Virus record (IMG/VR): IMGVR_UViG_3300024262_000195
Span: 1 to 27,894 of that record
Length of the DNA: 27,894 nt
Reading direction: 5' to 3' (one strand)
From: a virus
Shown: piece by piece, positions 13,003 through 27,894 of the stretch
Layout: each line of letters opens with the position of its first letter
Numbering within the stretch: position 1 is the stretch's first letter
Notes under the pieces: model-generated
The model's database searches: none
What the model was told of the DNA's origin: nothing
The model's input: only the letters and a program-made list of their open reading frames with translations
Position numbers and translations under genes: made by a program

Positions 13003-15837
13003 ATGCAAAATTTCCCTCTTTTTATAGTGCATTGTGAAAGAATTCGTAGGAGAGAATGGTATTATCTCAGATTTCCTATCAATGACCAATTAATTCAGAG
13101 AGTAAAAAACTTACCAGAAGAAACTCGTAAGTGGAATGCTTCTATGATGGTTTGGGAAGTCTCAACCTTATCATTATTCTTTTTAATTAAAAGATATAAG
13201 GGGTCTAATAAGATTCATTTTGATTTCGGAAATGATGATAGTCGTAAAATTTTTATAAATCAAATAAAAAAACTTGAAGTTAAAGAAGAGGAAAAGCGTA
13301 AATTTATTGCTGACCTCAACATTAAGAAAGAACATTGGGTTAAATATAAAGAAGAACTTGAAACAACATATGTTGAGTATGGTGAGAAAATGCACGCATT
13401 GTTGAAAGAGGGTGTTAAACTTTATCCACATCAGATTGTCGCAGCAATGTTCATGAATGCTACTCGTAGTACTTTAATATCACATGAAATGGGATTGGGG
13501 AAGGCGCAAGACCTTGATTCTAAACTACTTACACCTAAAGGTTGGGTAAGAATGGGTAATATTAAAATTAATGATTTCGTTATTGGAAGTGATGGAAAAC
13601 CAAAAAAAGTTTTGGGTGTTTATCCACAAGGTCTAAAAGACATATATGAAATAACATTTAATGATGGTGTTACTGCACGTTCGTGTGATGAACATCTTTG
13701 GAATGTAAATACTTATATTCGTAATTGGCGTGGAAATCCTTTTATGACAAAAACACTTCGTCAAATTATGGATAGTGGATTACAATTTAATAATGGTAAT
13801 AATAAATGGTATGTTCCAATAGTTAAACCAATTTATTTTGATGAAAAAGAATTAAAAATAGACCCATATGTTATGGGGTGTTTATTAGGTGACGGTTCAT
13901 TGACTGTTTTAAATGGTATTGGGTTCTCATCTGTAGATAAAGAATTAATAAATGAAATGTCATTAAGATTACCAGAGAAACATAATATGGTAATCAATGG
14001 TAAATCAATAAAAGATTATTATTTAACTGCTGATGGTAAAAATAATATTATTAATCAGGAATTAAAAAAATATGGGTTGAAAGGTAGTAATTCATATACT
14101 AAATATATTCCAGAAGATTATAAATTCTCTTCAATACAACAAAGACTTGAAATATTACAAGGTATTTTAGATACTGATGGACATTCAAGGAAAGATTCTA
14201 TTGTTGAATTAACATTAGCATCAAAACAATTAATTGAAGATGTACAATTTATTGTACAATCATTAGGTGGTATTGGTAGAATAAAACCTAAATATGTTAT
14301 TTATAATGGTGAAAAAAGACTTTATTGGAGAATAACAATTAAATTACCACCAGAATTCACACCATTTAAATTAAAAAGAAAAATAAATACATTTGTAGCA
14401 CCAACAAAATATCAACCAAATAGGGCAATTAAATCAATTAAATTTATTGGTGAAAAAGAGGCACAATGTATTTTAATTGATTCAGAAGACCATTTATATT
14501 GTACTGATAATTGTGTATTAACCCACAATACACTTTCAGCTATCCTTTATGTTGAAATGAACAACTTCGAAAAAGTATTTGTAATCACACCAAATTCATT
14601 GAAGTTCAATTTTTATTATGAGGTCAAGAAGTTTACTAACAGTACAGCACACATTATAAATTGGAGAAAAAATGATTGTGGTATTGAAGAAGCTAAATAT
14701 GTTATTGTAAATTATGATTATTTTAATCCTACAAACACTAAGGAGAAAAAATTTATTACAAAATGGAAAAAACTAGGTGTTAATGTTATCGATGCAGTTA
14801 TTTGTGATGAAAGTCAAAAACTAAAAAATACTAAATCTAACACATATAAAAATTTTAAATCAATATTTAAAAAAAAGATATTTAGAGATGGGAAAATTAG
14901 TAAGATTTTCTTATCTGGAACACCTGCACCTAATAGAGCACATGAATTATATACTGTTTTAAATCAAATATCAGATGTTGATTTCCCAACAAAGAAATAT
15001 TTTCAAGAATATTATTGTGGTATGACCCGTGATACCGAGGGTGGTTGGGGTTATGTTGTAGATACCATGTCTCAAAAATTCGAGGAACTTTATCATAAAA
15101 TTGCACCGTTCACACACCGAAAACGTAAATTCGAAGTTTTGACAGACCTTCCAGATAAAACATATCAGCGTATTATATTAGAAATGACTGATGATGAACA
15201 ACGAATTTATGATGAAATCGAAGCGGGTGTTGCTAATGAATTTGTAGAACAACCAAATGGCAATCCGTTGACAATAATGATTCGTTTAAGACAATATCTA
15301 GCACATGTTAAAATAAAACATGTTACTGATTTAATTGAAAACGTATTTGAAACAGGTGAAAAAGTTGTTGTTGTTGATTTTTTTAAAGACAGTCTTTATG
15401 AATTAAAGAAGAAACTTGGGGAATGTGTAGCACTACATACTGGTGATCAAAATGCTGAAGAACGTGCTGAAATCGTTAAAGAATTTCAAAATATTGATGG
15501 GAATATTAAAGGATTTTTAGGTAGTATTCAAACATGTAATTATGGTCTAACACTTACTGCTGCAAGTAAATTGTTTATAATGACACTTCCATATTCTGTT
15601 GGAGAATATGATCAGGTTAGTGACCGTCTTCATCGTATAGGTCAGAAAGCTGCCGTTAATATTTATGTATTGATTTTTCCTGATACTATTGATGAATATG
15701 TGTTTTCTTCAATTGAGAATAAGCGTAGAGAAGTTCTTAAAGTTATTGATAACGAAGATTATACTTCAAATGTAAATGAATCAGTATTAAGTGAAGTAAT
15801 TAAAAAAATTAAGGAAAAACATGGCAAAGATGTATGA
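13003..15837 (+). CDS. SNF2-family (SMARCAL1/HARP-like) DNA helicase, intein-containing
   Basis: 944-aa precursor; removing the 342-aa intein (residues 168-509) leaves a 602-aa helicase. The N-terminus (FPINDQLIQRVKNLPEETR, then W) resembles the HARP-like domain of SMARCAL1-type annealing helicases. Helicase motifs follow in order: LYPHQ (Q-motif region), HEMGLGK|T (Walker A, K167 and T510, split by the intein), DESQ (602-605, Walker B variant of DEAH), LSGTPAPNR (from 637) and YDQVSDRLHRIGQ (869-881, motif VI with arginine fingers). The product is expected to use ATP to remodel DNA, for example at stalled forks during phage replication. No Shine-Dalgarno precedes the ATG. It ends in TGA and overlaps the next gene by 17 nt. 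The family call is firm; the biological role is inferred. Confidence 0.92.
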   Translation: MQNFPLFIVHCERIRRREWYYLRFPINDQLIQRVKNLPEETRKWNASMMVWEVSTLSLFFLIKRYKGSNKIHFDFGNDDSRKIFINQIKKLEVKEEEKRKFIADLNIKKEHWVKYKEELETTYVEYGEKMHALLKEGVKLYPHQIVAAMFMNATRSTLISHEMGLGKAQDLDSKLLTPKGWVRMGNIKINDFVIGSDGKPKKVLGVYPQGLKDIYEITFNDGVTARSCDEHLWNVNTYIRNWRGNPFMTKTLRQIMDSGLQFNNGNNKWYVPIVKPIYFDEKELKIDPYVMGCLLGDGSLTVLNGIGFSSVDKELINEMSLRLPEKHNMVINGKSIKDYYLTADGKNNIINQELKKYGLKGSNSYTKYIPEDYKFSSIQQRLEILQGILDTDGHSRKDSIVELTLASKQLIEDVQFIVQSLGGIGRIKPKYVIYNGEKRLYWRITIKLPPEFTPFKLKRKINTFVAPTKYQPNRAIKSIKFIGEKEAQCILIDSEDHLYCTDNCVLTHNTLSAILYVEMNNFEKVFVITPNSLKFNFYYEVKKFTNSTAHIINWRKNDCGIEEAKYVIVNYDYFNPTNTKEKKFITKWKKLGVNVIDAVICDESQKLKNTKSNTYKNFKSIFKKKIFRDGKISKIFLSGTPAPNRAHELYTVLNQISDVDFPTKKYFQEYYCGMTRDTEGGWGYVVDTMSQKFEELYHKIAPFTHRKRKFEVLTDLPDKTYQRIILEMTDDEQRIYDEIEAGVANEFVEQPNGNPLTIMIRLRQYLAHVKIKHVTDLIENVFETGEKVVVVDFFKDSLYELKKKLGECVALHTGDQNAEERAEIVKEFQNIDGNIKGFLGSIQTCNYGLTLTAASKLFIMTLPYSVGEYDQVSDRLHRIGQKAAVNIYVLIFPDTIDEYVFSSIENKRREVLKVIDNEDYTSNVNESVLSEVIKKIKEKHGKDV
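13504..14529 (+). other. Class 3-type intein with LAGLIDADG homing endonuclease, in the helicase Walker A motif
   Basis: In-frame insertion of 342 aa between GLGK (K167) and T510. It starts with Ala168 (AQDLDSKLLTP) instead of Cys or Ser and ends THN followed by Thr. The diagnostic class 3 residues are all visible: Trp233 two residues after the block B His (CDEHLW), Cys489 at the block F position usually occupied by Asp (AQCILID), and Thr507 before the terminal His508-Asn509. In class 3 inteins the block F Cys starts splicing in place of residue 1. The central part has two LAGLIDADG motifs (YVMGCLLGDG, 289-298, and LQGILDTDG, 385-393) with Asp297 and Asp392 as expected catalytic acids. Splicing and nuclease residues look intact, so both activities are plausible. 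The host protein should be inactive until splicing rejoins the P-loop. Confidence 0.93.
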
Positions 15838-16183
15838 ATGGGATAATAACCCATTTCAAGATTTTTTATTAAGGTCGATATTATATGGTATTGATATATC
15901 TGATAAGGAATATGAGGTTAATATTTATGTTGGAATGACTACTTTTTTGGAATATTTTATTGATAATGAAAAAGAATTATCTTATTTGGATTTTAAAATA
16001 GTAAATAAGGATAACTATTTTAAAGTTATACCAAATAACTCAATAAGTGCTTTTTGGTTGTCAGGTGTTTTTCCGAAAGATATTAAAAAAGTATTAGATA
16101 CTAATGAACTTGTGTTCGATGAACATAAATTTAAATATGATGCTAGAAGGAAAAAATTGAAATATATTAAAATGAAAAAATAA
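15821..16183 (+). CDS. Hypothetical protein in the replication operon
   Basis: 120 aa. It starts inside the helicase gene (17-nt overlap) and its stop overlaps the next start by 1 nt (TAATG), so translation is probably coupled. It is rich in aromatic and charged residues, with a Lys-rich C-terminus (RRKKLKYIKMKK). There is no membrane segment or known motif. The segment near the N-terminus (PFQDFLLRSILYGIDISD) weakly resembles that of the 85-aa protein at 11766. No function is assigned. Confidence 0.7.
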   Translation: MAKMYEWDNNPFQDFLLRSILYGIDISDKEYEVNIYVGMTTFLEYFIDNEKELSYLDFKIVNKDNYFKVIPNNSISAFWLSGVFPKDIKKVLDTNELVFDEHKFKYDARRKKLKYIKMKK

Positions 16184-17010
16184 TGAAAAAAATTGGTGTT
16201 TTATTTTCTGGTGGTTTAGATTCAACATATTTAGTCTGGAAAAATCTTAATGATGGAAATCAAGTAATCCCCATATATGTTGAAATTGAAAACAATGGTA
16301 ATAAATCTATTTTAGAGAAAAATCGAATCAAACTACTTTATGAAAAATTTGCTAAAGAATTTAATAATGATGACAACACTTATATTCATAATATTAATTA
16401 TGCTATAAGTGTTGGTGTTCATGCAAGGGAAGATAGTTTACATTTAAAACAAATACCTGTTTGGATATTTTCATTAATGTTTATGCAAAGTATGGACATT
16501 GATGAAATACAAATTGGATATATTATGAATGATGATGCAATCTCATATCTTGATGATATTCAAACTATCTACAAATCATACCAACCAATTTGTGAACCAA
16601 TGAAACCATTATTTTTTCCATTAACAAAGAAAAAAAAATGGGAAATAGTAAGAAAATTACCTAAAGAATATCTTGAACTTATTGTTAGTTGTGAAAATCC
16701 TAGAATTATTAGTGATGAAAATGTTAAATTTGTAGAATATGAACCATGTTGTAATTGTACACCATGTAATTCAATAATAAATAGTAATTATTATGAGTTG
16801 GATAAATTCCCTGAAAACTACCATAGACAGTTAGTTGAACGACACGCATATGATTTACGAAAATTTAAATATAAGGTCGTTGATGATAATGGTGTTGAAT
16901 ATTTCGAAAAAATGTGTAAATTAGAACCTTCAAAAATACCACATCAATTGTCATTGGATTTTGATTATGAAATTGAAGATAAAATGGAATATGAATCAGT
17001 AAAAGGTTAA
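16183..17010 (+). CDS. queC: QueC-like 7-cyano-7-deazaguanine (preQ0) synthase
   Basis: 275 aa, longer than typical QueC (about 230). The N-terminal PP-loop SGGLDS (residues 9-14) binds ATP for adenylation of the substrate. IGYIMNDDAISYLDD (111-125) corresponds to the conserved G...D..YxD region. The C-terminal zinc site is present as C170 and C189-x2-C192-x2-C195, with C190 in place of the usual Gly. QueC converts 7-carboxy-7-deazaguanine to preQ0 with ATP and ammonia. In phages preQ0 can be put into DNA by a DpdA-type transglycosylase as protection against restriction, or feed tRNA queuosine. No FolE, QueD, QueE or DpdA gene is in the window, so partners must be elsewhere in the genome or in the host. 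It sits 4 nt before the DNA polymerase gene. Confidence 0.8.
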   Translation: MKKIGVLFSGGLDSTYLVWKNLNDGNQVIPIYVEIENNGNKSILEKNRIKLLYEKFAKEFNNDDNTYIHNINYAISVGVHAREDSLHLKQIPVWIFSLMFMQSMDIDEIQIGYIMNDDAISYLDDIQTIYKSYQPICEPMKPLFFPLTKKKKWEIVRKLPKEYLELIVSCENPRIISDENVKFVEYEPCCNCTPCNSIINSNYYELDKFPENYHRQLVERHAYDLRKFKYKVVDDNGVEYFEKMCKLEPSKIPHQLSLDFDYEIEDKMEYESVKG

Positions 17011-20710: not shown

Positions 20711-21355
20711 ATGAAATTTAAAAAGAAAGATATTGACGAAATTATTAATAGTAGTGGAGAATTAATTGGTAGTGAGGATATACCTACAACTGGTTCTGAT
20801 TTAGAAAGTGCTGCAAATAATACTACCGATTATAATGCTAAAGTAGGTCAACAACCATTTAGATATGATATGTTAGGTCGTTTTGGTTTCACACTAATGC
20901 CATTTATGGAAGGTGAAGAAAAGAATCAGGGTCAAGCCGAATTAGAAAATGATCTTGTTGATTTAATGAATCAAAGATATGTTGATATTCTTTCGCATTA
21001 TAAAAGAAATCCACAAAGTATTAAACCAGATTATAGAAAACATGTTACTGATAAAGAAATTAGTAACGAATCTATGAAATATAGTGTTGAATATGCTAAT
21101 AAAATTCTTAAATTAATTGAAAAACATTTCGAGAAATCATTAAAAAATCTTGACGAACAATTTCAAGAAAATCTTGTTGAAAGTAAGGTTGTTGAAGATA
21201 AAATGGTTGATAAAAAGGAAGATGAAATGACATCCAAATCCGAAGATAATGCTCTCAGAGAAAAGAAACTTGAGAAAATTGCTGGGTTGATTAATAAATT
21301 GGAGAAAAAGGATATTAATAAATTAATTAATTTATTGGAGAAGACTAATGGCTAA
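20711..21355 (+). CDS. Acidic, helix-rich phage protein of unknown function
   Basis: 214 aa. The first 65 residues look disordered, then comes an aromatic patch (FRYDMLGRFGFTLMPFMEG, 51-69). The rest is highly charged and helical, including a probable coiled coil near the C-terminus (about 175-214, LEKIAGLINKLEKKDINKLI). I do not recognise the family. It opens the block of probable virion-accessory genes and overlaps the following Nudix gene by 8 nt. Hydrophobic-x-Glu sites such as NLVES and the charge pattern would fit a scaffold or head-associated protein, but this is only inference. Confidence 0.7.
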   Translation: MKFKKKDIDEIINSSGELIGSEDIPTTGSDLESAANNTTDYNAKVGQQPFRYDMLGRFGFTLMPFMEGEEKNQGQAELENDLVDLMNQRYVDILSHYKRNPQSIKPDYRKHVTDKEISNESMKYSVEYANKILKLIEKHFEKSLKNLDEQFQENLVESKVVEDKMVDKKEDEMTSKSEDNALREKKLEKIAGLINKLEKKDINKLINLLEKTNG

Positions 21356-22121
21356 TCAAGAACTATATGATAAAACCTATAAAATCCCTTCTGAGGTACT
21401 TAAAGGTATCCAGACATACTTAGTATCCAATCCGAATGGAAATGGTGTCAAACGAGCTAAACACATACTTAGGAATGGTTATTTAACATATCAAGCACTT
21501 AAGAGATTGAAGAATTTCTTTGATCACTTTAATTCAGAAATTAATGATAATACACAATTTTATCTTGCGGGTGGTCAACCTATGAAAGAATTTATTGAAA
21601 CAACATTAAATCAAGAAAGAGCAGGGGTGAATAGGTCAAAAGAAGTTAAACGAGATATGACAGCAAACCCTAATTCGGAATTAATGCCACATCAAACACC
21701 AAGACTTAATGAGGTTAAGAAAAAAAAGGTTAAAAATGCTGTTGCTGTTATTGTAAATAAGGATAATAAAATATTATTGTTAAAGCGAAGTGATACCCCT
21801 AAAGTCTGGATGCCAAATAAATGGTCATTAGTTGGTGGTAAGGTTGAGAAAAGTGAAAGTCCAGAACAAGGATGTAAAAGGGAAATATTAGAAGAAACTG
21901 GTTTAGAGATTAAAAAATTCGTTAAATCATTTACTATTGAAAGAAATACCGATAGTATTGAATATATCTATGCTTGTCGATATGAAGGTGATGATACTGA
22001 TATTGTGCTTGATCGTGAGAATACTAATTATGGTTGGTATGATGTAAGCGAGATGGAATTTCTTGATCTTGTTCCACATTTAATAGAATATATTACACTT
22101 GTATTTAAAAAATATGAATAA
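21348..22121 (+). CDS. Nudix hydrolase with an extra N-terminal domain
   Basis: 257 aa. The C-terminal half (about 130-257) is a Nudix domain with a complete Nudix box: G164, E170, R178-E179 and E182-E183-x-G185, matching GX5EX7REUXEEXGU. The preceding strands (AVAVIVNKDNKILLLKRS) and W-x-L-V-G-G are typical. The enzyme should hydrolyse a nucleoside diphosphate linked to another group, such as a damaged dNTP, NADH, ADP-ribose or an RNA cap; the substrate cannot be told from sequence. Residues 1-115 form a helical domain (YKIPSEVLKGIQTYL, AKHILRNGYLTYQALKRL) of unknown function. The two parts are joined by a Lys-rich linker after PRLNE (118-122). The N-terminal part may target the protein to the virion or host. 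Confidence 0.88.
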   Translation: MANQELYDKTYKIPSEVLKGIQTYLVSNPNGNGVKRAKHILRNGYLTYQALKRLKNFFDHFNSEINDNTQFYLAGGQPMKEFIETTLNQERAGVNRSKEVKRDMTANPNSELMPHQTPRLNEVKKKKVKNAVAVIVNKDNKILLLKRSDTPKVWMPNKWSLVGGKVEKSESPEQGCKREILEETGLEIKKFVKSFTIERNTDSIEYIYACRYEGDDTDIVLDRENTNYGWYDVSEMEFLDLVPHLIEYITLVFKKYE

Positions 22122-22165: not shown

Positions 22166-22435
22166 ATGGCAAACGGAGAAACAAGTAGATTATTAGAAAA
22201 TAGTAAAGAATATAGGGATGACTTAATTGCAAAAAATAGTGATGGTTATACGCCCGGTAATGAATATAGTGTTGGACATGTTGATACGCTTTCTGATGGT
22301 GATAATAGAGGTAGAGAAGAAGATGATAATACCATTGGTACACTTATTGATATCGAAGCAAGAGAAAAACAATTGGCAAGAAATAGTTGCTTATTTACTA
22401 CTACAAATCAATATACTGTTGGTGGTAGAATATAA
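22166..22435 (+). CDS. Small phage protein, probably structural
   Basis: 89 aa, very polar and rich in Asn, Asp, Gly and Arg. It starts MANGETSRLLENSKEYRDDL and has repeated Y/T/G-containing turns (NEYSVGHVD, NQYTVGGRI). The start has an A-run leader and no Shine-Dalgarno. Its stop overlaps the start of the next gene by 1 nt (TAATG), so the two are translationally coupled. I do not recognise the family. The block context suggests a virion-associated product. A longer overlapping frame at 22227-22445 is a shadow, since it lacks the TAATG coupling and a leader. Confidence 0.7.
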   Translation: MANGETSRLLENSKEYRDDLIAKNSDGYTPGNEYSVGHVDTLSDGDNRGREEDDNTIGTLIDIEAREKQLARNSCLFTTTNQYTVGGRI

Positions 22436-23367
22436 TGGATGCTGAAGTAAAAATATTGTTCGAAAATATTAAGCATTTTCGTCAACTCTTAACTGAAGGA
22501 GTTGGTGAAGATGTTATTATAAAAGCTATTGAAAATCATGAATGGATTTTTATTTATTATGATGCTGGCGATGAAGAAGGTAAAAATGCAACAGGTGCTC
22601 GTACAATAAGACCTTATGTTCTTGGTACTGGTAATGCTGGTAATACACTTTTAAGAGCATGGCAAGATAACCCAAGAAATAGTTGGCATTTTGATAATCG
22701 AGCAACTCGTAAAGACAGTCAATATCATGATTATTGGACTGATAATGAGGGTACGAAACCCGGTTGGAGATTATTCGATGTAGCTAAGATAACAAAAGCA
22801 TACCCAATTGGTAAAAAATTTAATGATAGTAACGGTAAACCGATGATACCTGCTGGATATCATGAAGGTGGTGATGATGCTATGACTAGCATTATTGCTT
22901 ATGTTTCAAAAAGTGATGATTTTCAAGCACCACAAAAGATTGATAGGGAATTTAGTGGTGAAACATCTCCAAGAGCAGAGTCTTATAAACAAAAATGGGA
23001 TAGTATTAGAAATGGTAATAAAAATAATAGGAAAATTACTAGTGATGATGTTGCTAAATTAAGTGATCTTGCAACTCGTGTTTATAAAACAAAGAAAGGT
23101 AGTTATTTGGTAGTAATTGACGATAAAAATAATTTCCAATTAATGTTAGTAAAAGACAAGGATAAACAAAATATCCCTGATACTGCAATTGTTGGGTCGT
23201 TACCTTATTTATATGATAGTCTTGTTAAAGGAAACGCACCTGCTGATGATAAATTTTTTAATGATATGAAAAATAAAACTAAAGCAGCAGTGAATCAACA
23301 ACAAACAGGGGTAAATGAAACTGACAAACCAACAATCCCTTATAAAAAAATGACTTTTTTCAAATAA
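22435..23367 (+). CDS. WYL-domain-like protein
   Basis: 310 aa. Residues about 28-125 have the outline of a WYL domain: IKAIENHEWIFIYYD, then ARTIRPYVLG, TLLRAW and GWRLFDVAKIT, so a basic Arg/Pro strand precedes an Arg-Leu-Phe strand. WYL domains bind nucleic acid or nucleotide ligands and often regulate bacterial defence and transcription, but there they usually follow an HTH domain, which is missing here. Residues 180-270 look like a second small alpha/beta domain (SYLVVIDDKNNFQLMLV). The tail contains Q-rich VNQQQTGVNETDKP. It lies among probable head or virion proteins, so a structural or ejected role is as likely as a regulatory one. The WYL call rests on pattern only. Confidence 0.65.
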   Translation: MDAEVKILFENIKHFRQLLTEGVGEDVIIKAIENHEWIFIYYDAGDEEGKNATGARTIRPYVLGTGNAGNTLLRAWQDNPRNSWHFDNRATRKDSQYHDYWTDNEGTKPGWRLFDVAKITKAYPIGKKFNDSNGKPMIPAGYHEGGDDAMTSIIAYVSKSDDFQAPQKIDREFSGETSPRAESYKQKWDSIRNGNKNNRKITSDDVAKLSDLATRVYKTKKGSYLVVIDDKNNFQLMLVKDKDKQNIPDTAIVGSLPYLYDSLVKGNAPADDKFFNDMKNKTKAAVNQQQTGVNETDKPTIPYKKMTFFK

Positions 23368-24167: not shown

Positions 24168-27100
24168 ATGACATTCGTTGAATTTAAAGAGAATTTCTTA
24201 CCAGAATTCATGAACATTAGATCATTTGCTGGTAGAATCAAATACGCCAATGAACACCTATCTAGGATTGGTAGTGGCACTGGAAGAATTGTATACGATA
24301 TTGATGGTGAAAGGGTTTTAAAACTTGCAAAAAACACAAAAGGTGTTGCACAAAATGAAACTGAAGCTAATATCGGATATTATCGTGACACCAATCATAT
24401 TGTAACTGAAGTTTTTGATAGTGCTGAAGATGATACTTGGTTAATTGCAGAAGAAGCAAAAAAAGTTACTGAAAAAAGAATCAAAGAACTTACTGGAATT
24501 CCAAGTCTTTATAAACTTAATACTTTTTTGACTATTGTTGAGAGAGATAACAAACCGGGTGATGATCCATTTAGTAATCAATTAACTGATGAAGAGAAAA
24601 GTTTTTTCTGGGAAAACGAATTTGCAACAGATTTAGCAGATTTAGTTGTGGGTTATAATCAATCCATAGGTGATATGGGTAGACCAAGTTCGTATGGTGA
24701 GGTATTACGTGACGGTCAACCAACAATTGTTTTAACAGATTATGGTTTAAATGATGAAGTCTATAATACACATTATAATCCACAAAGAAAAGAGAAATAT
24801 AGAATGTATGAACTCTTTAACTATGCTGATGGAAATGATGATATACTTAGTGATGCTGGTGGCGGTATGGATATTAGACATGGAATGTGGGCGCAAATGC
24901 CTTATACCGTAGATGATGGTCAGGGTGTTATAAATGAAGAATTTATTAAATTTGTTTCTAATCGAAATCGTTATCCAAATAAACCAATATCTGGTCTTCC
25001 TGTTCTTACAGATAAATTTCATGATTGTGTTAATAATATAACTGAAATAATTAAAGTAGTTGAAAATAAAAAACAATTTTATGATAATTTACTTGAACTT
25101 CAAGATTATTTAATATCTCAAAATTATTATGATAGAGACCCACTACTTCGTGAAGCATACTCAGTTAATGAAGAAGTTCCAGCAGTACAACGATATAGTT
25201 TGGATGATAAAAATTATTCTGATAAATTAGCAAATGAAGTTGCAGGTAAATTAAGATTAACAACTCCAAGAAATATTGGTGGTGGTGCTAATGGTTTTGC
25301 TTATGAGATAAATAATAATTTGGTGATGAAAATTACAGCAGATATTAGTGAAGCCGACGCAGCATCAAAATTATTAAGAGGTCAACCAAAATACTTAGCA
25401 AAAATTTTCAAATTATACAAAGTTGTCGATACTGAAATACATAAAGCATATTTTGTTATACTTCAAGAAAATATTCTTGATAAACCAGTTGAGAAATTCA
25501 GAAAATTGCAAAATGATGTCGAAAAAATAAGTCCAAATGGTATTGGTTATTTTGATCTTATGGGGTCAATAAGAATACCAGCTAAATTTGATTATAATAA
25601 TATGGTTGAATTTGGTAAACGTATATTAACCGATAATCCTGAAGCTAATGTCAGTGAATCTGATAGACAAGCAGCATATGAATATTTTATAGGTATGTTG
25701 AATATACGTAAAGAATTAATAGATTTCGATATTAAATCAAGAGATTATATGGAAATTAAAAATCTTGGATATAAAGATGGTAATTTAAAATTTTTCGATA
25801 CTGGTGGATATCGTGCTACTGAACCCCAAATGAATGATGATAGTATAATATCGTTACCAGAAAATATTACTGAAGAACAACTTGATGAAATTTATCCGAA
25901 AGAACGTGCAGATGCAATTGCTGTTGAAATTGGGGAAAAACTTAATGTAAAACCAAATTATATTGCTCATGGACTTTTTGGAGTTGCATATGATATTGGT
26001 AATGATAAAGTGTTGAAAATAACTAGAGATAAAAGTGAAGCAGCAGAAAATGTTAAACTTATAGGAAAACCTTTAAAATATTTAGCTGAACCATATAATG
26101 TTTATAGAATTAACACAAAATCAAATGATATTGAAACATATGCCATTATTTTAGAAAAATTAAAAACTGATCTACAATATTTTGAACGAATGTTTGACAG
26201 ATTGGATTATGTTTTTGACAAGATATTTAAAATAAATTATAAAGACGCTCTTGAAGCATATAAAGATGGGTATCGATTTGAAACTAATGTTGATACAGAT
26301 AAGATTGATAATTATTTCAAAACTAATCCAAAAGATAGGGAATTTTTCTTTAGTATATTAAGAATTGCTGAAGAACTTGAAAAATATGGTATAGAAACTA
26401 TTGATTATTATAACCCAAGAAATCTTGGATATAAGAAAAGTGGTTTAATTGGTTTTTTTGATATTGGATATGGTAATGAAAATTTACAACTAACAAATCC
26501 TGAACAGATTGATGTTAATGTAAATGAAGATGGTAGTGCTAAATTCAGTACTGATGATGCTATTGGTCAAGATGGTTTTCCAACCTATAATACTAATGAT
26601 ACTTCTCCAAGCATTAATAATGATTTGGATGCTAATATTGCAATGTATGAAGACCTTGAATATAACCATGTTAAAGGTGATGCAACTGATGATAAATATG
26701 AAATTAGTGAAAGAAACAAATCATATGGTGCTGGTTCAAAAACAGTAAAGGTAAAAAAGAAATGTCAACTTGGTGGTTTAGGAAACACAAGTGTTGCTTG
26801 TAATCAAGGAGATATTAATAATTTGGAATTTGGAAGTGTTAATGAAGATATTGATGCAAGTGAAGCATATCGAGATGAGAATGCATTACAAACAATTATT
26901 GATGGTAAGCGTGGTGTAGGTATAATCATGTTTGGTATGTATCCTCAATTAAAAGAATTAGCGATTAATGCTGGACTTAATTTCATTAAAATTAAACAAG
27001 ATAGTCATCCAGAAAGTTTGGGAACAAGTATTGTTTATCGTGATGGTTATGAAAAACAAGCAAATCGTTTACATGACATAATGAAATCTCATGGTGGTTA

Positions 27101-27894
27101 TGTTGCGGATGAAACACCTGAAGAAGCTAGAGAAATTGGTTTGTTATTAGGTTATACTGAAGATAGTGTTAATAAGTTTGTGGAAAAAAGATATCTACAA
27201 ATCCCTGTTGCACAGGAAAGAAGTTATGAAGACCATATGAATAGTTTAGATGAGGATTTGGAAATCTCAGAATATTTTAGTAGTCTTGTACCTATGAATG
27301 AAGCAGAAATAATGTCACTACAAGACTTACCTTTTAAAAAAGAGGTAGAGCAACTTGGTGGTAAAATATTTAGTGTTGGTGGTGCAGTACGTGATGAATT
27401 TTTAGGTAAAGAATCTAAGGATTTAGATATATTGATCACAGGTATTCCTATGGATGGACTTGAAAAACTACTTTCAAAATATGGTGGTGTTAATGCTGTT
27501 GGTAAGTCATTTGGTGTTTTGAAATTTGTACCAAAAGGTGCAAGTGAAGAAATTGATGTTGCAATTCCAAGAACAGAAACACCAACAGGAGAAGGTGGTC
27601 ATCAAGGTTTTGATGTTAAATCAGATCATACTTTACCTATTGAAGATGATTTAAGAAGAAGAGATTTTACAATTAATGCAATTGCAAAAGATATTGATGG
27701 TAATTTGGTTGACCCGTTTAATGGTCAAGAAGATTTAAAAAGTAAAATTATTCGCATTGTTAATCCAGAGGCATTTTCAGACGACCCATTGAGGATGTTA
27801 CGTGCTGTTCAGTTCGCAAGTCGTTTTGGTTTTACTATTGAACCCAAAACCATGCAAATGATAATTGATAATGCAGATAAAATTAAAGAAATAG
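24168..27894 (+). CDS. Multidomain protein: three kinase-fold-like repeats, Cys module and tRNA nucleotidyltransferase head (3' truncated)
   Basis: The frame is open from the ATG at 24168 to the window end, giving 1242 codons without a stop. Repeat 1: Gly loop GSGTGR (35-40), VLK Lys52, hinge WLIAEE, D169, DYG (191-193). Repeat 2: GGGANG (371-376), VMK Lys388, Glu395, D526, N532, FDTG (D544). Repeat 3: HGLFG (601-605), VLK Lys617, Glu624, D746, N752, FDIG (D765). Repeats 2 and 3 share D-Y-x4-N-L-G-Y-K before the metal-binding Asp. Residues 866-884 hold C-x11-C (CQLGGLGNTSVACNQGD), followed by an alpha/beta module of about 110 aa (905-1010). From 1060 comes a class II nucleotidyltransferase head: GGAVRD (1071-1076), DLD (D1085, D1087), RRRDFTINA (1163-1171), DPFNGQEDL and DPLRMLRAVQFASRFGF. 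This class adds CCA or poly(A) to RNA 3' ends; specificity is unknown and the RNA-binding part is beyond the window. It may be a polyprotein. Confidence 0.88.
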   Translation, partial: MTFVEFKENFLPEFMNIRSFAGRIKYANEHLSRIGSGTGRIVYDIDGERVLKLAKNTKGVAQNETEANIGYYRDTNHIVTEVFDSAEDDTWLIAEEAKKVTEKRIKELTGIPSLYKLNTFLTIVERDNKPGDDPFSNQLTDEEKSFFWENEFATDLADLVVGYNQSIGDMGRPSSYGEVLRDGQPTIVLTDYGLNDEVYNTHYNPQRKEKYRMYELFNYADGNDDILSDAGGGMDIRHGMWAQMPYTVDDGQGVINEEFIKFVSNRNRYPNKPISGLPVLTDKFHDCVNNITEIIKVVENKKQFYDNLLELQDYLISQNYYDRDPLLREAYSVNEEVPAVQRYSLDDKNYSDKLANEVAGKLRLTTPRNIGGGANGFAYEINNNLVMKITADISEADAASKLLRGQPKYLAKIFKLYKVVDTEIHKAYFVILQENILDKPVEKFRKLQNDVEKISPNGIGYFDLMGSIRIPAKFDYNNMVEFGKRILTDNPEANVSESDRQAAYEYFIGMLNIRKELIDFDIKSRDYMEIKNLGYKDGNLKFFDTGGYRATEPQMNDDSIISLPENITEEQLDEIYPKERADAIAVEIGEKLNVKPNYIAHGLFGVAYDIGNDKVLKITRDKSEAAENVKLIGKPLKYLAEPYNVYRINTKSNDIETYAIILEKLKTDLQYFERMFDRLDYVFDKIFKINYKDALEAYKDGYRFETNVDTDKIDNYFKTNPKDREFFFSILRIAEELEKYGIETIDYYNPRNLGYKKSGLIGFFDIGYGNENLQLTNPEQIDVNVNEDGSAKFSTDDAIGQDGFPTYNTNDTSPSINNDLDANIAMYEDLEYNHVKGDATDDKYEISERNKSYGAGSKTVKVKKKCQLGGLGNTSVACNQGDINNLEFGSVNEDIDASEAYRDENALQTIIDGKRGVGIIMFGMYPQLKELAINAGLNFIKIKQDSHPESLGTSIVYRDGYEKQANRLHDIMKSHGGYVADETPEEAREIGLLLGYTEDSVNKFVEKRYLQIPVAQERSYEDHMNSLDEDLEISEYFSSLVPMNEAEIMSLQDLPFKKEVEQLGGKIFSVGGAVRDEFLGKESKDLDILITGIPMDGLEKLLSKYGGVNAVGKSFGVLKFVPKGASEEIDVAIPRTETPTGEGGHQGFDVKSDHTLPIEDDLRRRDFTINAIAKDIDGNLVDPFNGQEDLKSKIIRIVNPEAFSDDPLRMLRAVQFASRFGFTIEPKTMQMIIDNADKIKEI

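Follow-up and report, generated by a model that had tools for sequence, protein, structure and literature searches.

A probable head-matured, cassette-built effector precursor joining kinase-like modules to a CCA-adding enzyme in a T4-type jumbo phage lineage

The IMG/VR virus record IMGVR_UViG_3300024262_000195 is itself fragmentary, and the window analysed here is the whole of it (27,894 bases, positions 1 to 27,894). On its plus strand, a single frame (24168-27893) remains open for 1242 codons, with its 3' end past the window, as an initial annotation made from the sequence had read it. This gene is probably the 5' part of a cassette-built precursor of polyvalent effectors that would be matured in the head of a T4-type jumbo phage. 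Its product joins three kinase-like modules to the head of a CCA-adding enzyme, and the module borders each end in [LIV]-x-E, a protease-type motif. The initial annotation called this order a fusion. The modules are indeed joined in one frame, but the joined order is probably the layout of a precursor and not a working fusion.

The N-terminal module (residues 1-335; 24168-25172, plus strand, as for all other parts of the polyprotein), matching phrog_4301, is present in all relatives. It includes a kinase-like fold, K1, over about residues 1-195, followed by a disordered stretch (196-253) and a helical tail. K1 displays a Gly loop (35-40), Lys52, Asp169 and a DYG motif (191-193), with the catalytic-loop Asn replaced by Ser/Thr. 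Two kinase cassettes come next, K2 (residues 336-574; 25173-25889), with its fold at 345-552, and K3 (residues 575-787; 25890-26528), with its fold at 577-785. Across 16 aligned proteins, Lys388, Asp526, Asn532 and Asp544 of K2 are invariant, as are Lys617, Asn752 and Asp765 of K3, the Asp746 of the latter being nearly so. In all three kinase modules, the rate of nonsynonymous substitution (dN) is well below that of synonymous substitution (dS), as under purifying selection.

Structure modelling bears out the three folds. Residues 1-800 were modelled with AlphaFold2 and 15 relatives, and the domains at 345-552 and 577-785 are both confident, with a predicted local distance difference test score (pLDDT) of about 90; each is made of a kinase N-lobe plus the catalytic-loop and DFG strands. 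Their best matches among solved structures are PKR (Z 10.7 over 146 residues) and MPS1 (Z 9.2), and aminoglycoside phosphotransferases are matched as well. K1, poorly modelled there at 55-97 and 191-253, was refolded alone (residues 1-200, 36 rows) and is then confident to about residue 195. Protein kinases and aminoglycoside phosphotransferases make up almost all of its 50 best structure matches, which reach Z 7.8 and also comprise a few SAICAR synthases. T7-like phage protein kinases are among the viral structures matched. Repeats devoid of a kinase fold, which the initial annotation had named beforehand as fatal to its proposal, were not what the models gave. The kinase alignments end soon after the DFG Asp, so that most of the C-lobe is missing. 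No Pfam kinase family matched the window protein up to E 10, and the modules are therefore assigned to the kinase fold only and not to a family; a sequence search of the PDB with the kinase alignment returned nothing convincing.

Downstream of K3, a linker module (residues 788-848; 26529-26711) ends with I-S-E848/, where the slash marks the predicted point of cleavage. It is followed by a module of 45 residues (849-893; 26712-26846) that carries the C-x11-C pattern already seen in the initial annotation, here C866-x11-C878, which is invariant in relatives, and that ends with S-V-N-E893/. The next module (894-1029; 26847-27254) ends with L-D-E1029/ and is absent in L003 and L080, two relatives where the flanking modules join at VNE/. 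A spacer (1030-1045; 27255-27302) ending with P-M-N-E1045/ precedes the CCA-adding enzyme, of which the window holds the head and the start of the neck (1046-1242; 27303-27893). This last part is matched by Pfam PolyA_pol (residues 1068-1196, E 1.8e-22) and by the tRNA nucleotidyltransferase family PHROG 2244 (residues 1066-1242, E 4.5e-56), as expected from its earlier reading. The head motifs VGGAVRD, KDLDI, RRDFTINA and DDPLRMLR are all present (GG, DxD, RRD and DDxxR, respectively). These motifs place the enzyme in class II, and a CCA product is predicted.

In relatives, the neck and body of the enzyme are recognized as PolyA_pol_RNAbd and tRNA_NucTran2_2, which would lie past the window end in the present record. 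One relative, L013, is identical to the end of the window at 137 of the 142 overlapping bases; at that identity it was judged to be a close relative and not the piece that physically continues the window. After its CCA head, L013 displays the neck, the body and then a 2H phosphodiesterase-like domain (HHMTI, HITLA), and this order is probably what follows the window end. The two H-x-T motifs of 2H phosphoesterases, HHMTI and HITLA or HITIA, are found in L002, L003, L013 and others, and Pfam tRNA_lig_CPD matches 4 of 28 relatives (best E 5.7e-8). Near the polyprotein gene of relatives lies a gene for a Swiss-Army-Knife-like HAD phosphatase, recognized below the cut-off (E 5e-4). The association of a CCA-adding enzyme with a 2H domain plausibly fits the repair of cleaved tRNAs.

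A scan of IMG/VR with the whole protein recovered 12 loci, and a scan with the N-terminal module 47 loci on contigs of up to 349 kb, giving 36 polyproteins of 642-2688 amino acids (aa) after removal of near-duplicates. The three kinase repeats of the window are not a fixed feature, as the number of kinase cassettes behind the first module varies from zero to two among relatives. Among 28 relatives, modules include GNAT (8), Acb1-like (6), 2'-5' RNA-ligase-like (5) and ART-PolyVal (3) domains. The CCA-adding enzyme is among the modules in 20 of the 28. In other relatives, about a third of all those that bear the enzyme, it is a separate gene, often behind an HNH-like open reading frame (ORF). 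The contigs of relatives also carry genes for gp23 and an S77 protease, as well as baseplate and sheath genes identified by sequence resemblance. Among cultured phages, the only relative is Xanthomonas phage XacN1, whose ORF170 is a stand-alone K1-like protein. The DNA polymerase of the window matched nothing in the phage collection, and none of the PADLOC defence families was matched. A single contig from a metagenome-assembled genome, together with analogy, suggests a Bacteroidota host; the 'moraphage' lineage, with mostly Bacteroidota hosts (PMC12619734), may be a relative.

The borders between these modules share the [LIV]-x-E signature. The first junction, V-N-E335/E (25164-25172), keeps [IV]xE in most relatives. 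The second (25854-25889) includes two predicted sites, L-P-E565/, which is the breakpoint where K3 is absent, and L-D-E574/, with [LI]xE at residue 574 in most aligned rows. In the third, V-N-E787/D (26520-26528), the Glu is invariant, P3 is V, I, M or L, and P2 is free. In the AlphaFold2 model, the stretches of lowest confidence (328-335, 565-574 and 787-800) fall on these predicted sites, with pLDDT under 50 at 328-335, at 565-574 and from 787 onward. The fourth junction (S-V-N-E893/ in the window protein) comes after a conserved CNQGDxxNL sequence: at all 29 sites of 28 proteins, P3 is I, L or V and P1 is E at a fixed spacing, while six residue types occur at P2 and every column after the site has an entropy of about 3 bits.

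The motif is also enriched over the whole family. Across the 36 non-redundant polyproteins, [LIVM]NE occurs 238 times against 82 +/- 9 expected from shuffles, whereas it remains near expectation in the DNA polymerase (12 vs 7.6), the helicase (3 vs 5), SbcCD (10 vs 8) and the baseplate protein gp6 (2 vs 3) of the same phages. The positions where relatives diverge point in the same direction. When a sharp breakpoint is defined as the residue up to which two polyproteins are alike and beyond which they are unlike, 90 of 305 polyprotein breakpoints close a [LIVM]xE (11.3 times background), against 8 of 136 (3.0 times background) in a control of 854 other proteins from the same phages (Fisher p 5e-9). 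Because breakpoints are partly non-independent, the fairer figure comes from those in distinct contexts, 30 of 115 versus 3 of 62 (p 4e-4).

The same motif is found in the capsid of this lineage. Both a T4-type major capsid protein gp23 (PF07068, E about 1e-64) and a prohead protease of family S77 (PF03420) are encoded in nine of the ten long relatives. All eight capsid proteins read have [HY]MINE/S after the FENQ segment and ahead of the conserved core, at the end of the propeptide and in the position of the FLTE/A at which T4 gp23 is cleaved. The capsid MINE/ site and the S77 protease make the junction motif the one that this lineage would use for capsid maturation. In T4 itself, gp21 also cuts Alt, at ITE-6 and LTE-619 (PMC5694885). 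As a separate observation, the prohead protease carries an intein-like insertion near its catalytic His in L114 (G009:C1:214152-216080) and also in L097, L099 and L100; the insertion matches Intein_splicing below the cut-off (E 1.3e-4), between two S77 halves.

From the module folds, the CCA motifs, the junction motif, the variability of cassettes and the protease and capsid genes of relatives, all observed in sequences or models, the following course may be proposed. The gene would be translated late as one chain, the invariant kinase-like module first and variable effector cassettes behind it, and the chain would be taken up into the prohead core, for which the invariant N-terminal module is a candidate packaging signal. 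Then, an active gp21-type protease would cut after Glu at the [LIV]-x-E between cassettes, as at the MINE/ of the capsid, and the separate mature proteins would stay in the head and be ejected with the DNA. The effectors freed in this way would be small kinases lacking most of the C-lobe, directed at host proteins, and the CCA-adding enzyme; in relatives, they would include a 2H phosphodiesterase, GNAT, ADP-ribosyltransferase and Acb1-like proteins, serving host takeover, RNA repair and counter-defence. The T7 kinase acts on host proteins, and by analogy the present kinases may do so too.

Since the same cutting signal would end every cassette, recombination could add, remove or exchange cassettes and still leave a product open to processing. 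On balance, we favour a polyprotein strategy in which one precursor supplies up to about ten takeover or counter-defence proteins, freed in the capsid by the head-maturation protease acting in trans, with cleavage sites doubling as recombination seams for new arsenals. The ejected host-takeover polyprotein guessed at in the initial annotation appears to have been the right idea, to which the protease-type sites at borders and the protease and capsid genes of relatives are now added. The attack on host tRNA envisaged with it found no support, and the repair of tRNA is plausible given the 2H phosphodiesterase in the same precursor and the adjoining HAD gene of relatives, the maturation of phage tRNAs being an alternative.

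Several points weigh against this head-matured precursor. The window itself contains neither a protease gene nor a capsid gene, the record being only a fragment. Copies of [LIVM]NE also occur within folded modules, such as VINE at 257 in the N-terminal module and, in relatives, TVNE in the CCA body; such copies must be shielded or else cut as well. No short N-terminal targeting peptide of the T4 kind is seen, and no [LIVM]NE falls within residues 1-100 of the window protein. A plain test on BLAST alignment ends did not separate polyproteins (5.25-fold enrichment of [LIVM]xE) from their control (5.3-fold); that control had few and non-independent ends, and the plain test was not used as evidence, the stricter breakpoint test with a larger control being used instead. 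K1 may be an inactive pseudokinase because its catalytic-loop Asn is replaced. Finally, packaging, cleavage, ejection, kinase activity and targets are inferred, which for presence in the virion and cleavage weighs against the proposal.

A polyvalent protein could alternatively be packaged and ejected uncut, [LIV]xE being then a conserved style of linker or a recombination seam. The polyvalent proteins known so far are large virion proteins of several domains, the N4 virion RNA polymerase is packaged unprocessed (PMC5512222), and the processing of ejection proteins differs among giant phages (PMC5694885). This delivery of an intact chain is nevertheless unlikely, as the junction motif is that of the lineage's own capsid protease, strict at P1 and P3 and free at P2, as a prohead protease is present, and as relatives hold CCA and 2H modules as separate genes.

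A cytosolic, unpackaged set of late enzymes, whose CCA and 2H parts would mature or repair phage tRNAs, also seems improbable. It would suit G009, a genome of 349 kb that encodes about 33 tRNAs, 31 of the 32 inspected having no encoded CCA, and CCA-adding enzymes are common in jumbo phages (PMC7824862). However, it accounts neither for the protease sites nor for the cassettes (ART, GNAT and kinase) nor for the position near tail and baseplate genes, and supplying CCA to phage tRNAs needs no linkage to kinases. An artificial joining of separate genes, by a frameshift, a chimera or faulty annotation, was the other outcome named in advance as refuting the fusion. It might be suspected from a contig fragment whose gene runs off the end and from the separate CCA ORF of several relatives, but it is hardly credible and was ruled out, as the fused order, sought in phage genomes, recurs in about 20 relatives. 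These lie on independent contigs, share start and order, are 46-72% identical and have a dN well below dS.

Among known systems, polyvalent proteins are the nearest kind, and the T4 internal head proteins and Alt the nearest mechanism. Polyvalent proteins, described by Iyer et al. in 2017, are large multidomain phage proteins joining kinases, ARTs, GNATs and Pol-beta nucleotidyltransferases and predicted to enter the host with DNA (PMC5512222). The present chain resembles them in combining unrelated effector domains, three kinase-like modules and a CCA head in the window and GNAT, ART-PolyVal, Acb1 and 2H domains in relatives. Their kinases have lost the C-terminal subdomain while keeping the ATP-site and phosphotransfer residues (PMC5512222); likewise, K2 and K3 lack most of the C-lobe with Lys, Asp, Asn and the DFG Asp conserved, K1 being without the Asn. 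Iyer et al. likened polyvalent proteins to viral polyproteins and credited release to embedded peptidase domains (PMC5512222). The present chain, in contrast, shows no peptidase module, and its sites fit a capsid-maturation protease acting in trans; neither a link to a CCA-adding enzyme nor S77-type sites at each module border are described in the passages of their text considered here (PMC5512222).

The T4 internal head proteins and Alt are processed by gp21, packaged in the head and ejected as takeover or counter-defence proteins (PMC9958956, PMC5694885). The [LI]xE motif is common to both systems, as are the S77 protease and the gp23 capsid, these two in the genomes of relatives. Unlike the effectors sharing a precursor here, the T4 proteins are each encoded by a gene of their own, carry a short targeting leader and are trimmed of terminal peptides only. 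Head ejection proteins of the giant phages SPN3US and phiKZ are cleaved by the prohead protease, in some cases at several positions (PMC5694885). The motif there is A/S-x-E and propeptides are removed, whereas several enzymes are predicted to be freed from one chain here. Phage RNA-repair sets include a CCA-adding enzyme, a 2H phosphoesterase and a Swiss-Army-Knife HAD phosphatase (PMC7824862), the same kinds of enzymes as in the precursor of relatives and their adjoining HAD gene. In the passages considered, these enzymes appear mainly as products of separate genes (PMC7824862), while in the present lineage one chain links them to kinase cassettes. What would set this system apart is a capsid protease acting in trans, its sites lying at all borders of a shuffled chain. 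No paper on a 'phage polyprotein' was found in the open-access literature, subscription literature being outside the search.

Besides the polyprotein, other genes may encode processed proteins. The NUDIX protein of the window (21348-22121, plus strand) has a leader of about 115 residues ending with L-N-E/ before the domain, and xNE recurs at 118-124 in relatives; by its sequence, it is possibly a further processed head protein. The same is possible for the product of 22435-23367, with an N-terminal leader ending with L-L-T-E/, a C-terminal GVNE/ and relatives with similar leaders. A second family of about 890-1180 aa (G001:C1:91240-94557, with homologues in G002, G003, G004 and G009) contains 42 [LIVM]NE against 5.9 expected, with DUF3008 and DUF6926 modules in one member, and is probably another processed polyprotein. 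An 1192-aa protein (G001:C1:5185-8763) with ART-PolyVal and internal LINE-type sites is a possible third processed effector precursor. In G009, ORFs at 145932, 148325, 203377 and 234208 encode otherwise different proteins with a common leader, RLFEVMxKV...LNE/, which resembles T4 capsid targeting sequences and could serve to list packaged proteins.

Elsewhere in the window, an SNF2-type helicase (13003-15837) is split by a LAGLIDADG/Hint intein-like insertion that some relatives appear to lack (603 aa on the contig of L010, for example), and a QueC-like gene (16183-17010), which may serve to modify DNA with 7-deazaguanine, adjoins the PolB gene. The tRNA genes of G009 (L110, L115-L117) mostly have one C after the apparent discriminator, then A/T-rich sequence and no CCA.

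Phage effectors injected with DNA are hard to find. If every effector is bounded by [LIV]xE, the sequence gives the borders and testable sizes of dozens of injected proteins. If the proposal is true, the capsid protease could serve generally to release an arsenal of effectors, and the shared sites would offer a simple route for swapping counter-defence modules. One delivery unit would then link kinases, ADP-ribosylation, acetylation, Acb1-like cyclic-nucleotide hydrolysis and the repair of tRNA ends.

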